DNA of 44,633 nucleotides. Source: Candidatus Acetothermia bacterium. Its GTDB lineage: Bacteria > Bipolaricaulota > Bipolaricaulia > RBG-16-55-9 > JANLFV01. Under the pieces are notes generated by a model. The model saw nothing but the letters and a program-made list of their open reading frames with translations, did not search any database and was not told where the DNA came from. Both the position numbers and the translations under genes were made by a program. Position 1 is the stretch's first letter, and each line of letters starts with the position of its first letter. Where the stretch lies: contig JANLFV010000013.1 in the NCBI GenBank assembly GCA_024653345.1, positions 1-44,633 on the forward strand. The letters are read 5' to 3'. Positions 32,193-38,582 of the stretch are shown piece after piece.

Positions 32193-33515
32193 TTACCTCC
32201 CTGTGGAAGTTTCGGTCCCCAAGATATCAGCTGGGCTCTCACTTGTCAAGCGCTCCTTGTAGGTGAACTCCAGGTCGCCCAACCTGATCAGAGCGCCGCC
32301 TTGCAGGCCGTGCTGGCGGAGTTCGCGGATCACGCCCAGCCGCTCGAGCTGCTCCAAGAGGTAATCCAGTCCCGTCCAGTCCTTGATGATCAGCCGGGCG
32401 AGCCGCCGCACTTGCTCCCCGCTCACGGTGAAACTGTCCCCATCACGGGAGATCAGCAACTCCGGCTCGGCGGGAAGGCGGTAGACCCGTCGCCGCGGAG
32501 TGACTCGCGGCTGGCAGGGCTTCAGCTCCGCCAGCCTCTCGGAGCAGAGCTGGAGTAGCTCGCGCAGGCCCTGGCCGGTGAGGGCCGAGACCGGGTGCAT
32601 CTCGATCCCCTGCGCAGCGAAGCGTTCCACGACCTCCCTAACTCCCTCAGCGCTCAGCAGGTCGGCCTTGTTCCCGGCGACGACCTGGGGCCGCTCCGCC
32701 AGCGTTGGGGAGAAGGCCCGCAGTTCCTCGTTGACCTTGTGATAATCCTCGAGCGGATCGCGCCCCTCGCTTCCGGAGATGTCCACAAGATGCAACAGGA
32801 GCCTTGACCGCTCCACATGGCGGAGGAAGCGGTCGCCGAGCCCCCGCCCCGCGTGAGCCCCCTCGATCAGCCCGGGGATGTCCACGAGGGTGAACGGAGC
32901 TCGCTCGTCGAGCTGGACGACGCCGAGGCAGGGCTCGAGTGTGGTGAACGGATAGGGGGCTATTTTCGGGCGGGCGGCCGAGGCGGCGGAGATGAGCGTC
33001 GATTTCCCTGCATTGGGATAGCCGACGATCCCCACATCCGCGAGGAGCTGCAATTCCAGCTTGAGCCAGCGGCCTTCGCCCGGTGCCCCCCTCTCTGAGA
33101 ACCGCGGGGCCTGCCGCGTGGGGGTCGCAAAGTAGGCGTTCCCCCGCCCGCCCTCTCCGCCTCTGGCGGCGAGGAACTCCTCTCCCTCGGTCACAAGGTC
33201 AGCCAGCACCTCAGCAGTCTCAGCGTCCTTGATCACTGTCCCCAGAGGGACATCGATGATCAGTGGCCTCCCATCGCGACCGGTCTGGCGGTTCGGCCCT
33301 CCTGCCGCTCCGTCCTCGGCGCGGAAGTGGACCCGGTGCTTGAACTGCTGAAGGGTGTTCAGGGTCGCCGTCGCGCGGAGGAGGACCGCGCCGCCCCTCC
33401 CGCCGTCGCCCCCGTCCGGTCCGCCCTTGGGGTGCCGCCTGGTCCGATGGAAGCTGATCGCCCCGTCGCCACCCTTGCCCGACTCGACATAGATCTTAGC
33501 CTCGTCGATGAACAT
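32193..33515 (-). CDS. obg: GTPase Obg/CgtA
   Basis: The 440-residue protein has the glycine-rich OBG fold (VESGKGGDGAISFHR), the G domain (GYPNAGKST, DIPGLIEGAH, NKADL) and a C-terminal OCT domain (about 345-425). It is a ribosome-associated GTPase acting in 50S assembly and stress. ATG 33515 lacks a good GGAGG. Its gene follows rpmA, and its end carries the infC ribosome site. Confidence 0.95.
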   Translation of the reverse strand: MFIDEAKIYVESGKGGDGAISFHRTRRHPKGGPDGGDGGRGGAVLLRATATLNTLQQFKHRVHFRAEDGAAGGPNRQTGRDGRPLIIDVPLGTVIKDAETAEVLADLVTEGEEFLAARGGEGGRGNAYFATPTRQAPRFSERGAPGEGRWLKLELQLLADVGIVGYPNAGKSTLISAASAARPKIAPYPFTTLEPCLGVVQLDERAPFTLVDIPGLIEGAHAGRGLGDRFLRHVERSRLLLHLVDISGSEGRDPLEDYHKVNEELRAFSPTLAERPQVVAGNKADLLSAEGVREVVERFAAQGIEMHPVSALTGQGLRELLQLCSERLAELKPCQPRVTPRRRVYRLPAEPELLISRDGDSFTVSGEQVRRLARLIIKDWTGLDYLLEQLERLGVIRELRQHGLQGGALIRLGDLEFTYKERLTSESPADILGTETSTGR

Positions 33516-33560: not shown

Positions 33561-33803
33561 CTACCTTGTGGCCGAGACGCTGACGGAGTGTCCGCGGAAA
33601 TGGACGTAGCCCTCCTCGAGGGCGAAAAGGGTGTAGTCCCGGCCCATCCCCACGCCCGGCCCGGGATGGAAGGTGGCCCCGCGCTGGCGGACGATGATCT
33701 GTCCCGGCCGGACCCACTCCCCGCCATACTCCTTCATCCCCAGGCGCTTCCCGACCGAATCGCGCCCGTTCCTCGATGAGCCGCTACTCGACTTGTGTGC
33801 CAT
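33561..33803 (-). CDS. rpmA: 50S ribosomal protein L27, no N-terminal extension
   Basis: ATG 33803 gives 80 residues starting [20 protein letters not shown], the mature L27 N-terminus found in E. coli-type proteins. The GTG at 33831-33833 would add ten residues but has no ribosome site at proper distance and does not resemble the cleavable LNLQFF-type leader of Bacillota. L27 reaches the peptidyl-transferase centre with its N-terminus. It lies directly after the prp gene, whose usual job is to cleave that leader. Confidence 0.95.
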
Positions 33804-33813
33804 CGCACCCCCC

Positions 33814-34143
33814 TCAAACCTTGACCCCGGCACCGACGTCGCGGATCTCCAGTGACTCGGGATACTCCCGCTCCAGCGCCCGCAGGCCGAGGACCATCGT
33901 CTCGAGGATCGCGTCGATCTCCCGGTTCAGGAAGCTCTCCCTCTCCAGCCTGCACTGGAGCCAGCCCCCCTCCTCCTTCACCTCCGGCTCCAGCTTCAGA
34001 TAATCTTCTAGGCCGATGATAGCTGTCTGGACCAGCGCCTCCACGCTCACCTGCAGGGGATGCTGGGGCGCGAAGACGCCCTTCCGGCTACGGAACTCGC
34101 AGATCTTCCCCGAGCTGTCGCGATAGACCTCGACGGCAATCAT
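33814..34143 (-). CDS. Prp-like protein (YsxB family) lacking the catalytic His and Cys
   Basis: The 109-residue product sits between rplU and rpmA, the standard location of the L27-processing cysteine protease Prp. The N-terminus aligns with the family ([16 protein letters not shown]; Bacillus has a GRICSF at this place). The two motifs that hold the catalytic dyad, GHA and DIVCAxxS, read RKGVFA and PLQVSVEA here: neither the His nor the Cys is present. The rest of the fold ([15 protein letters not shown]) is kept. It overlaps rplU by four bases. It is probably a pseudoenzyme kept for structural or regulatory reasons, which agrees with L27 having no leader. Confidence 0.8.
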
Positions 34144-34454
34144 CCTTGGATCTCCTCAATCTTGGCCCTCATGTAATGCTGCCGGTGGCCGACCTTCCGC
34201 CGATAGCGGGTCTTCGACTTGTAGGTGAAGACCGGCAGCTTCTCTCCTCTCACCTCTTCGATGATCCTCCCGACCACCTCTGCCCCTTCAACATAGGGCT
34301 GGCCGATCTTGGTCTTCCCCTCAGTGCTGAGCAGCAGGACCTTCTCGAAGCGGACGGTCGCGCCGGGCGAGGCCTGGGGGAGCCGCTCGATGAGCAACTC
34401 CTCGCCCTGCTCGATGAGATACTGTTTCCCTCCGGTCTCGACTACCGCGTACAT
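34140..34454 (-). CDS. rplU: 50S ribosomal protein L21
   Basis: ATG 34454 has GGAGG five bases upstream, giving 104 residues. The start at 34478 would add MLMAEEGG, which encodes that ribosome site. Signatures are YAVVETGGKQYLIEQGEEL, VVGRIIEEVRGEKLPVFTY and KTRYRRKVGHRQHY. It is first gene of the L21-Prp-L27 group, about 90 bases after metG. Confidence 0.95.
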   Translation of the reverse strand: MYAVVETGGKQYLIEQGEELLIERLPQASPGATVRFEKVLLLSTEGKTKIGQPYVEGAEVVGRIIEEVRGEKLPVFTYKSKTRYRRKVGHRQHYMRAKIEEIQG

Positions 34455-34541: not shown

Positions 34542-36179
34542 CTAGCGCGAGCTTCCATCCCCCTTCAGCGCGGCATACCGTCGCTCGATCTCCTCGACCT
34601 TGATCTTCTGCAGGAGCGGCACGGCCCTTTCCACGCGAAACTCCGGGGTGACTCGCGCGATGTCGGCGAAGGTCGGCCGCTCGAGGTTCAGCATCCGATA
34701 GACGGCCTTGGAGAAGGAGGGGACGAACGGCTCGAGGAGGATCCCCAGGGCCTTGACGAGCTGGAGCCCGCTCGCGAGCACCCCCGGCCGCTCGCCCTCC
34801 CAGGGCCGCTCCTCCTGGAAGTAGCGATTCCCGAAGAGGGCCAGCTCCGTGATCCGCCGGAGCGCACCGGCTAGCGCGCCCCCCTCGATCTCCCTCTCCA
34901 CCTCGCGTTTCGTCCTCTCGATCTCCTCCAGGACCCGGCCCTCCACGGTCGCCTCGACCCGCCCGTCGTAGAGCCGGTTGGCTAGGGCGATGACCCGATT
35001 GACCAGGTTGCTGATGTTGCCGATGAAGACACCATTCACTGCCTTCTCCAGCTCCTCCCAGGAGAAGTCCACATCCTTCTTCTCCGGACGGGCATAGAGG
35101 AGGTAGAAGCGCCAGAGGATCGGGTCGAGGAGCTTGAGGGCCTCGTCGCAGTAGATCCCAACTCCGCGGGTCTTGGAGAACTGGGCCCCGCCGATCCAGT
35201 TGAGGAACTCCGTGGCCGAGATCTGGTCCGGGAGATGGTAGCCCTCGCGCGAGGCGAGGAGCTGGGCGGGGAAGAAGATGGTGTGGAAGGGGATGTTGTC
35301 CTTTCCTTGGGTGTAGATGTGCTTGGCTTCGTCGGTGAGCCAGAACTCCTTCCAGCCCTCGGGATCGGCCCGATCGGCGAAGGATTGGATGGTAGCGGAG
35401 ACATAGCCGAGGGCGTTCTCCGCCCAGACATAGAAGACCTTCCCCGCCGCGCCGGCGAACGGCGCGGGAATCCCCCACTCCAGGTCGCGGGTGACGGCTC
35501 TCGGCCTCAGGCCCTGGGCGAGGAGCCCTTCCGTGAACCGCTGGACATTCTCGCCGAAGGCGCGTGAGGTGAGGAAGGCCCTTAGCTCCGGCTCGAGCTT
35601 CGGCAGGTCGAGATACCAGTTGCGCGTCCGCTTGAAGATGATCTCATCTTTCCCGCAGATCCGGCATTTCGGCTGGAGCAACTCCTCCGGCTCGAGGAGC
35701 GCGCCGCAGTCGTCGCACTGGTTCCCGTAGGCATTGGGCGAGCCGCAGCGCGGGCAGGTCCCCTGGATGAACCGGTCGGCAAGGAATTTCTGGCAGCTTG
35801 CGCAGTAGGCCCGCTCCTCGTCCCGGGGGAAGATGTAGCCGTTGGCCTCCATCTTCAAGTAGATCTCCTGGATGAAGCGATAGTGTGTGGGATGCTCTGT
35901 GGTGGTGTAGAACATGTCGATCTCGAAGGCCTTGAGGATCTCGAGTATCTGCTGGTGGACGGTGGTGGCGAGCTCTCGGGGGCTGATCCTCCGCTTGAAG
36001 GCCTCATACTCGATGTGCGTCCCGTGGGTATCTGAGCCGCTCACATGGAGGGCCTCATACCCCTTCAGCCGATAGTAGCGGAGGAAGACATCCCCGGAGA
36101 GGAGGGAGCCGATGAGGTTCCCCAGATGGGGGACGTTCGAGGCGTAGGGCCAAGCGCTGCAGACCAAGATCTTCTCCAC
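34542..36179 (-). CDS. metG: Methionyl-tRNA synthetase, short form
   Basis: The 545-residue product starts at GTG 36179 (GAGGTGA upstream). The HIGH-type motif is HLGN at 18-21, and the KMSKS equivalent is FSKTRG. The insertion carries four Cys pairs, C126/C129, C142/C145, C155/C158 and C172/C175, enough for two zinc knuckles as in the MetRS type with a double knuckle. The C-terminal EMAP-like tRNA-binding domain is absent, so the enzyme stops after the anticodon-binding helical bundle. It charges initiator and elongator tRNA-Met. Placement ahead of rplU makes a translation operon. Confidence 0.95.
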   Translation of the reverse strand: MEKILVCSAWPYASNVPHLGNLIGSLLSGDVFLRYYRLKGYEALHVSGSDTHGTHIEYEAFKRRISPRELATTVHQQILEILKAFEIDMFYTTTEHPTHYRFIQEIYLKMEANGYIFPRDEERAYCASCQKFLADRFIQGTCPRCGSPNAYGNQCDDCGALLEPEELLQPKCRICGKDEIIFKRTRNWYLDLPKLEPELRAFLTSRAFGENVQRFTEGLLAQGLRPRAVTRDLEWGIPAPFAGAAGKVFYVWAENALGYVSATIQSFADRADPEGWKEFWLTDEAKHIYTQGKDNIPFHTIFFPAQLLASREGYHLPDQISATEFLNWIGGAQFSKTRGVGIYCDEALKLLDPILWRFYLLYARPEKKDVDFSWEELEKAVNGVFIGNISNLVNRVIALANRLYDGRVEATVEGRVLEEIERTKREVEREIEGGALAGALRRITELALFGNRYFQEERPWEGERPGVLASGLQLVKALGILLEPFVPSFSKAVYRMLNLERPTFADIARVTPEFRVERAVPLLQKIKVEEIERRYAALKGDGSSR

Positions 36180-36914: not shown

Positions 36915-38582
36915 ATGAAGAGCACCGTTGAGCTGAAGGAGGTCCGCGCCCCGCGGGGGACGAGGCTCCAGTGCAAGGGCTGGTTGCAAGAGGCGGCCCT
37001 GAGGATGCTGATGAACAACCTCGACCCCGAGGTAGCCGGCGATCCGGCGAACTTGATCGTCTACGGCGGGACGGGGAAGGCCGCCCGCTCCTGGGAGGAC
37101 TTCTTTGCGATCGTCGAGACACTGAAGGAATTGGAGAATGATGAGACCCTGGTCGTCCAATCTGGGAGGCCGGTAGCCGTCTTCAAGACCCATGAGGATG
37201 CCCCGCGGGTCCTGATCGCCAACGCCCTCCTGGTCCCGGACTGGGCCACCTGGGAGAAGTTCCGGGAGCTGGAGCGGCTCGGGCTGACGATGTTTGGCCA
37301 GATGACCGCTGGCTCATGGATCTACATCGGGACTCAGGGGATCCTGCAGGGGACCTACGAGACCTTAGCCGAGCTGGCGAGGCAGCACTTCGCCGGCTCA
37401 CTGCGGGGGAAGTTCGTCCTCACCGCCGGTTTGGGGGAGATGGGCGGGGCTCAGCCGCTGGCCATCACCATGAACGAGGGGGTCGGGCTGATCGTGGAGA
37501 TCAACCCCGCCAAGATCGAGCGGCGGATTAGGACCGGCTATCTCGACCGGTGGACCGATGATCTAGATGAGGCCCTGGAGCTTGTCCTCCGGCACAAGGA
37601 GAGGAAAGAGCCCCTCTCCGTCGGCCTCTTGGGGAACGCGGCTGATGTCTACCCCGAGCTGGTCCGGCGGGGGATCGTCCCGGATGTGGTGACCGACCAG
37701 ACCGCGGCCCATGACGAGCTGAACGGCTATGTCCCTGGAGGGATGAGCTACCAGGAGGCCCTCGAGCTGCGGGAGAGCGATCCCGACTGCTACATCCGCT
37801 TGTCCTACGAGTCGATGGTCCGCCATGTCCGGGCGATGATCGAGTTCAAGCGGCGAGGGGCAGTGGTCTTCGACTACGGGAACAACATCCGCGGCCAGGC
37901 GGAGAAGGGCGGGTTAAGAGGGGCTCTCAGCGCCTTCCCAGGGTTCGTCCCGGCCTTCATCCGGCCGATGTTCTGCGAGGGGAAGGGGCCGTTCAGGTGG
38001 GCGGCCCTCTCCGGCGATCCACAGGACATTTACAGGACCGATCAAGCGATCCTCGAGCTCTTCCCCGAGGATGAGGCCCTCCAGCGGTGGATCAGGCTGG
38101 CCGAGGAGAAGGTGAAGTTCCAGGGGCTCCCGGCCCGGATCTGCTGGCTGGGATATGGCGAGCGGGCCAAGGCTGGCCTAGCCTTCAACGAGCTGGTGAG
38201 GTCCGGGGAGGTGAAGGCGCCGATCGTGATCGGCCGGGACCACCTCGATGCGGGGAGCGTGGCCTCGCCCTACCGCGAGACCGAGGGGATGCTTGACGGC
38301 TCGGACGCGATCGCGGACTGGCCGATCCTCAATGCCCTGCTGAACGCCGTGGCCGGCGCGACCTGGGTGGCGGTCCACCACGGCGGCGGGGTAGGGATCG
38401 GGAAGTCGATCCACGCGGGGATGGTGATCGTGGCCGATGGGACAAAAGAGGCGGCGCGCCGGCTCGAGCGGGTCCTGACGGTCGACCCCGGCTTGGGCGT
38501 AGTGCGGCACGCCGACGCTGGCTACGAGAAGGCGATCCGCATAGCCCGTGAGCGGGGGCTCAAGCTGCCGAGGCTGCGATGA
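36915..38582 (+). CDS. hutU: Urocanate hydratase
   Basis: The 555-residue protein has normal urocanase length and motifs: [34 protein letters not shown], the NAD-site [12 protein letters not shown], and [18 protein letters not shown] near 440. It contains tightly bound NAD+ and converts urocanate to imidazolonepropionate, step two of histidine degradation. The other hut genes (hutH, hutI, hutG or F) are absent from the window, so this is an orphan locus. Its stop overlaps the start of an outer-membrane-type gene by four bases (ATGA), an unexpected pairing. Confidence 0.95.

Follow-up and report, generated by a model that had tools for sequence, protein, structure and literature searches.

The closest described relatives of the protein considered here are the Prp proteases (YsxB; PF04327; MEROPS C108) of Staphylococcus aureus and Bacillus subtilis, which process ribosomal protein L27. 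In the S. aureus enzyme (SaPrp), the C34A, C34S and H22A substitutions each abolish more than 95% of activity, Gly21, Asp31 and Ser38 are also needed, and the published motif of the L27 leader is MLxx(D/N)LQ(F/L)F'A(S/H)KK (PMC9405229). A function beyond cutting has been suggested by several observations in S. aureus: pre-cleaved L27 causes growth defects, overexpressed C34A Prp results in pre-50S particles without L16, L27 and L25, and Western blotting during C34A overexpression finds Prp/L27 complexed with the pre-50S subunit (PMC9405229). A chaperone role for Prp has been proposed already, with disuse of the protease suggested in passing, in a review which also states that a chaperone dedicated to ribosomal proteins has yet to be defined in bacteria (PMC9405229). 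Whether Prp has any activity other than cutting L27 has been a standing question since this work on C34A and pre-cleaved L27. Furthermore, Prps without a leader-bearing L27 are known from spirochaetes and Thermotoga maritima (PMC9405229).

The window, i.e. the whole stretch of 44,633 nucleotides analysed here, belongs to Candidatus Bipolaricaulota. Open reading frames and Pfam matches give the gene order rplU, prp-like gene, rpmA on the minus strand (Table 1), with metG upstream of rplU. The ATG of the prp-like gene overlaps the stop codon of rplU as ATGA, and the rpmA start (33803) lies 10 nt past the prp-like stop. Pfam matches at the locus are Peptidase_Prp (34.5 bits against a cut-off of 27), L27 and L21, while the score of the prp-like product against the NCBIfam equivalog model is 35.5 against a cut-off of 171 bits. 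The genome contains one Prp-family gene and one L27 gene, a search of it for a second copy of either finding none; nor were any relatives found in a search of viral contigs, made because Prp has been called phage-related.

Table 1. Features of the rplU-rpmA region in the window, and loci in other genomes referred to in the text
Feature	Position	Strand	Remarks
obgE, downstream of rpmA	32193..33515	-	NCBIfam ObgE, above cut-off
rpmA (L27, 80 aa)	33561..33803	-	PF01016, 114 bits; mature N-terminus MAHKSSSG, no cleavable leader
prp-like ORF (putative Prp-fold pseudoprotease)	33814..34143	-	109 aa; ORF, Pfam PF04327, AF2, structure matches
C-terminal V-x-V tail, residues 107-109	33817..33825	-	phylum-specific extension
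LNREIDA, residues 72-78, start of helix 2	33910..33930	-	L72, R74, E75, D77, A78 99-100% in the phylum, unconserved in Bacillota
R68	33940..33942	-	phylum-invariant, unconserved in Bacillota
Y48-L49, end of helix 1	33997..34002	-	phylum-invariant
Residues 21-36, covering the old active-site loop and the first part of helix 1	34036..34083	-	GHAGYDAESKDIVCAGVSA in intact relatives; from alignments
R8-D9	34117..34122	-	identical in every Prp-fold protein of Bipolaricaulota, dead and intact alike
rplU (L21)	34140..34454	-	start set at MYAVVETGGKQY by homology
Fraserbacteria locus	L119:3001-3400		same species as G005:C34:142408-142978
Leaderless, Prp-less Bacillota-side genomes	L159, L160, L166-L171, L174, L178, L179, L185

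The window protein shares its fold, length and place between rplU and rpmA with the S. aureus and B. subtilis enzymes, to which it is homologous, but it differs from them in the absence of His22, Cys34 and Asp31, in a rebuilt or shortened loop, in the lack of a leader on the neighbouring L27, and in extra residues invariant across the phylum together with a C-terminal tail. Intact enzymes have GH..(D)IVCA..S at the aligned segment; the window segment aligned to GHAGYAEEGKDIVCAGVS is without the catalytic His22 and Cys34, and there is no Cys at all among residues 16-63. H28, the only His near the old loop, is off the catalytic position. The three further residues needed by SaPrp are likewise not provided, since K21 stands in place of Gly21 (or G22, one column on), there is no Asp31, and E35 occupies the column of Ser38. 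The substrate has changed too: the only in-frame start upstream of the MAHK of L27 is a GTG, the product of which is unlike the published leader motif, so that the window offers no L27 leader ending in F'A for a Prp to recognise. Both observations from which the earlier note set out, a Prp homologue without its dyad between rplU and rpmA and an L27 gene that encodes the mature N-terminus directly, are therefore borne out, the first by Pfam, fold and alignments. Chance or sequencing error is not the explanation, because the same dyad-less state is found in a genome of the same genus (L120 = G001; 82% identity to the window protein) and in 78 of the 93 genomes of the phylum that could be compared.

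Structure prediction, as the earlier note had advised, returned the Prp fold. The AlphaFold2 model of the window protein (pLDDT 90.1, pTM 0.83, from an alignment of 20 natural sequences; confidence is low at residues 106-109) has its strands and helices in the order bb-a-bb-a-b, which is the topology of family C108 (PMC9405229). All 14 significant Foldseek matches in the PDB are Prps, with TM up to 0.83 by query length (0.81-0.83 to 2idl and 7kld), and VIA-align gives Z scores of 14.1-16.4 to seven Prp entries and below 7 to everything else. A distant dyad-less relative (L129; 32% identity) has the same predicted fold and the same matches. Hence the window protein is judged from its predicted structure to be a Prp-fold pseudoenzyme, and the dyad-less proteins amount to a branch of pseudoenzymes within a known family. 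Another cysteine standing in for the lost one can be ruled out, as 61 of 77 dyad-less proteins contain no Cys anywhere.

The survey for co-occurring dyad and leader loss that had been proposed was carried out on 93 loci from the phylum and 50 from Bacillota. The class collection holds 100 species genomes, a search at phylum level giving the same 100; L27 was found in 93 and all 93 loci were read. Because Pfam misses 11 of 28 representatives, and a whole-genome Pfam search finds PF04327 in only 17/100 genomes as against a Prp gene in 87/93 readable loci, the survey was based on gene position and tblastn. Annotation pipelines will miss these proteins, or would name them cysteine proteases. A scan of the wider collection used the intact family as query, and its named matches are confined to Bipolaricaulota and Bacillota.

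A dyad-less Prp beside a leaderless L27 is found in 78/93 genomes, belonging to families f1 (which includes the window), f2, f3, f6, f7 and f9; the L27 of these starts with MAHK, or MATK in one case, and a leaderless start of this kind is present in 84/93 genomes overall, the window included. For some f6 members the script picked a late start codon, without effect on the counts. Both His22 and Cys34 are missing from 78/78 dyad-less proteins. Asp31 is lost as well, whereas Ser38 is kept in about 20% of them and Gly21 in 79%, not clearly in the window. By contrast, an intact dyad (GHTGYAEEGKDIVCAGVS) and an L27 leader of the form FDLQLF'A (e.g. MSKFRFDLQLF'AHK) occur together in eight genomes, all of them from family f4, which belongs to the order of the window. 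In family f8 (six genomes), the space between rplU and rpmA contains no gene, and L27 starts with MAHK; five of these loci were fully read, the sixth (G026) holding a run of N between the two genes. At the f8 loci L004, L005 and L010 (G023, G029 and G032), prp is deleted and rpmA follows straight after rplU, with L27 leaderless. Wherever the prp-like gene is present in the phylum, it lies immediately upstream of rpmA.

The suggestion that the two losses belong together thus holds at the level of the phylum, with 78 genomes having neither dyad nor leader, eight both, six no gene and one a mixture. Intact relatives, which the earlier note had named as something that would refute its reading, do exist in the same order, but with dyad and leader again together, which strengthens the link. 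A sign test on independent tree pairs is powerless with one to two pairs, and no p-value is attached to linkage within the phylum. The other half of the suggestion, that loss of the substrate came first and decay of the protease followed, fares less well on account of the mixed genome, G005 (family f5; Fraserbacteria, Table 1). In this protein the His and the long loop are kept, while Cys has been replaced by Gly and Asp by Thr; the L27 frame opens with MLKFDRMMVF'AHK, a worn leader, and a good ribosome-binding site precedes that ATG. This suggests that the Cys can be lost while a worn leader is still encoded. It is possible, from this one locus, that G005 represents a lineage in transition, an exception to strict linkage, or a case in which L27 keeps an uncut leader.

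The dyad-less genes are not decaying in any visible way. All 78 copies are unbroken open reading frames, although pairwise identity among them has a median of 41% and falls as low as 25%. Over 15 genome pairs, dN/dS has a median of 0.114 for the dyad-less Prp, 0.134 for L21 and 0.09 for L27; for the intact family it is 0.056, from three pairs only. The dyad-less gene is therefore kept by purifying selection as strong as that on L21 and L27, and retention of this kind implies a second role for the Prp fold, as the earlier note had supposed. The seven residues R8, D9, Y48, L49, R68, R74 and E75 are identical in 100% of the 78 dyad-less proteins, L72, D77, A78 and G86 in 99%, and all eleven in 100% of the eight intact ones. 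Among 46 Bacillota Prps, R8 is found in 22%, D9 in 41% and Y48 in 28%, and R68, R74 and E75 do not rank with the frequent residues. V/I107 and V109 are present in 97-98% of the dyad-less proteins, at positions that are gaps in about 75-80% of Bacillota sequences. G86 and T82, being common to Bacillota too, are general to the fold. As for the dyad itself, His22 is present in 100% of the eight intact Bipolaricaulota and 46 Bacillota proteins, and Cys34 in 100% of the eight intact proteins and the eight closest Bacillota ones. By an argument from topology, R8/D9 (end of strand 1), Y48/L49, residues 72-78 and the C-terminus would be situated at the other pole of the molecule from the old active-site loop, as would R68 (after strand 4). 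Since the intact f4 enzymes carry the same invariant residues, the second function is probably older than the loss of proteolysis. These charged residues could alternatively be a network stabilising the fold, rather than a contact surface.

Taken as a whole, the explanation with slightly better than even prospects is that the pseudoprotease has been kept for a non-proteolytic role, probably in L27/50S assembly. The gene descends from the L27-processing protease Prp; in lineages other than f4, rpmA shed its leader, and Prp gave up the His and Cys of its active site along with most of the clamp loop, while keeping its fold, operon position, R8, D9, Y48, L49, R68, the L-x-R-E-x-D-A motif and the C-terminal V-x-V tail. 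The invariant residues would then be the contact surface of the second function, presumably present already in the active enzyme of the phylum. Most likely the protein would act as a dedicated factor for assembly, its translation keeping pace with that of L21 and L27, and would bind either freshly made L27 or the late pre-50S particle into which L27 is taken. We infer that L27 or the 50S subunit is the partner, although it is possible that this is L21, ObgE or an unlinked molecule instead. The nearest parallel is S. aureus C34A Prp, which has a broken dyad and is still able to bind L27 and pre-50S; that protein is an engineered mutant working alongside a leader-bearing L27, whereas the dead form in Bipolaricaulota is natural and its L27 leaderless.

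The more specific claim, that throughout the phylum the Prp fold works without proteolysis as a factor dedicated to L27 (late 50S) assembly, in a function that predates the loss of proteolysis, falls somewhat short of an even chance. If it were true, an early assembly function would explain why Prp was kept here and discarded along with the leader in Bacillota, and the working surface would consist of R8, D9, Y48, L49, R68, R74, E75, D77 and the C-terminal tail. The phylum can in any case be regarded as a natural separation of functions, in which cutting and its substrate have gone and the protein has been conserved, with f4 as the control. The open literature searched, a scope outside which the two original Prp papers fall, yielded no account of a Prp that lacks the dyad in nature, of a connection between such a lack and the loss of the leader, or of such a protein being conserved throughout a phylum.

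The strongest competitor accepts the retained pseudoenzyme, with the same evidence of retention and selection, and gives it a role not specific to L27: it would bind L21, rRNA or another ribosome factor, for example, or regulate the rplU-prp-rpmA operon by binding its own mRNA. The ATGA overlap with rplU is in keeping with such a role, and so is the behaviour of Bacillota, in which a leaderless L27 needs no helper. On the Bacillota side, 50 L27 loci were read from 119 genomes, namely the 30 with the highest scores and 20 whose L27 frames are mostly short, a choice enriched for leaderless cases, so that the 12 found among the 50 are not a frequency. A Prp with intact dyad lies immediately upstream of each of the 38 leader-bearing L27s, including five with non-ATG leader starts or outside the strict pattern, which by eye have both leader and intact dyad. 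In the 12 leaderless genomes (Table 1), searches of the locus and of the whole genome found no Prp. The gene having gone from these genomes, its retention after leader loss is not the default, and in this comparison most Bipolaricaulota appear special in keeping a dyad-less Prp, in contrast both to Bacillota and to f8, which seems to be one family within the phylum that took the Bacillota route. Nor is the pairing of dyad loss with leader loss a general rule for Prp, because Bacillota lose the gene together with the leader, and T. maritima is reported to be leaderless with its catalytic residues in place (PMC9405229).

The same comparison weighs on an assembly factor for L27: leaderless Bacillota and the six f8 genomes manage without Prp, so a chaperone for L27 is not generally needed, and the evidence for one in S. 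aureus comes from a leader-bearing or overexpressed system, which counts against the explanation favoured above. Against a role unconnected with L27, however, stand the invariable position of the gene, where present, directly upstream of rpmA, and the fact that the sole published non-catalytic role of Prp concerns L27/late 50S assembly (PMC9405229). On balance such a role is possible but rather unlikely. The contrast with Bacillota makes the question of a second role directly testable and names candidate residues.

The direction of change is a separate matter. In a tree of L21, mature L27 and ObgE (610 alignment columns), f1 splits first within the window's order, followed by the separation of f4 from f5, f2 and f3, with f6-f9 on the other side of the phylum; the intact family is thus placed inside the dyad-less ones, and a tree constrained to unite every genome that lacks an intact dyad in a single clade is disfavoured (AU p 0.031). 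Support for several branches within the order is no more than moderate (85/51, 94/95, 91/60), which makes any count of losses approximate. If enzyme and leader were never regained, there were at least three losses; parsimony allowing regain requires two changes. The latter count, one loss and one gain, is the attraction of a history in which the dyad-less state was ancestral or arose once and f4 regained both enzyme and leader by transfer. Yet in the Prp tree the f4 proteins group with other Bipolaricaulota (91/98, not starred) and they carry all the phylum-specific invariant residues, which makes regain unlikely; moreover, the f5 protein has kept its His and long loop beside a worn leader, as expected of a lineage in the course of losing them. 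Transfer into f4 is thus improbable, and it is very likely that the phylum's ancestor possessed an active Prp together with a leader-bearing L27, the state still seen in f4.

It is less probable still that the dyad-less protein remains a protease with another nucleophile or another substrate, e.g. through H28 and S33 in the window's genus, or acting on FlhB. Both genomes of that genus have H28 and S33, and Prps free of a leader substrate, such as that of T. maritima, are thought to act elsewhere (PMC9405229). The T. maritima Prp (TM1457, PDB 1s12) is the best PDB match of the window protein in phmmer (E 0.005) and, like it and the spirochaete Prps, lies beside a leaderless L27; unlike it, however, the T. 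maritima protein keeps its Cys and His in place (PMC9405229; TLCASVS), and its genome, a control in the search for FlhB, encodes this protein, on which the Prp might act. FlhB, the other substrate that has been proposed for Prp, was found in none of the 100 Bipolaricaulota genomes, four control genomes being positive, and is rejected as an alternative substrate. It is present in 8/12 of the Prp-less leaderless Bacillota genomes, which argues against FlhB strictly needing Prp. As a replacement dyad, H28/S33 is rejected because it is unconserved in the other dyad-less proteins, most of which have no Cys either. Substituting Ser for Cys34 kills the S. aureus enzyme, and the loss of Asp31 and the incomplete retention of Ser38 and Gly21 point the same way. 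From these sequences, proteolysis would appear to be wholly absent in dyad-less Prps.

That the gene is a relic decaying after leader loss would fit the six f8 and 12 Bacillota genomes without either leader or gene, and a dN/dS somewhat higher than that of the three intact pairs; it is strongly contradicted, and very improbable indeed, given 78 open frames with invariant residues at such low pairwise identity and a dN/dS as low as in the neighbouring ribosomal proteins. Least credible of all is the idea that the ORF persists solely to couple translation of rplU and rpmA or to space them apart, which the short distances and ATGA overlap might recommend, since selection acts on the protein sequence and the two ribosomal genes work in direct adjacency in f8 and Bacillota.

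Two minor observations concern the surroundings of the locus. MetG in the window (34542-36179) is a protein of 545 aa without the C-terminal tRNA-binding extension present in the f8 MetG frames (L004, L005). Beside these translation genes, in a genome of 1.7 Mb, the window also contains a full-length urocanate hydratase, HutU (36915-38582; 961 bits).
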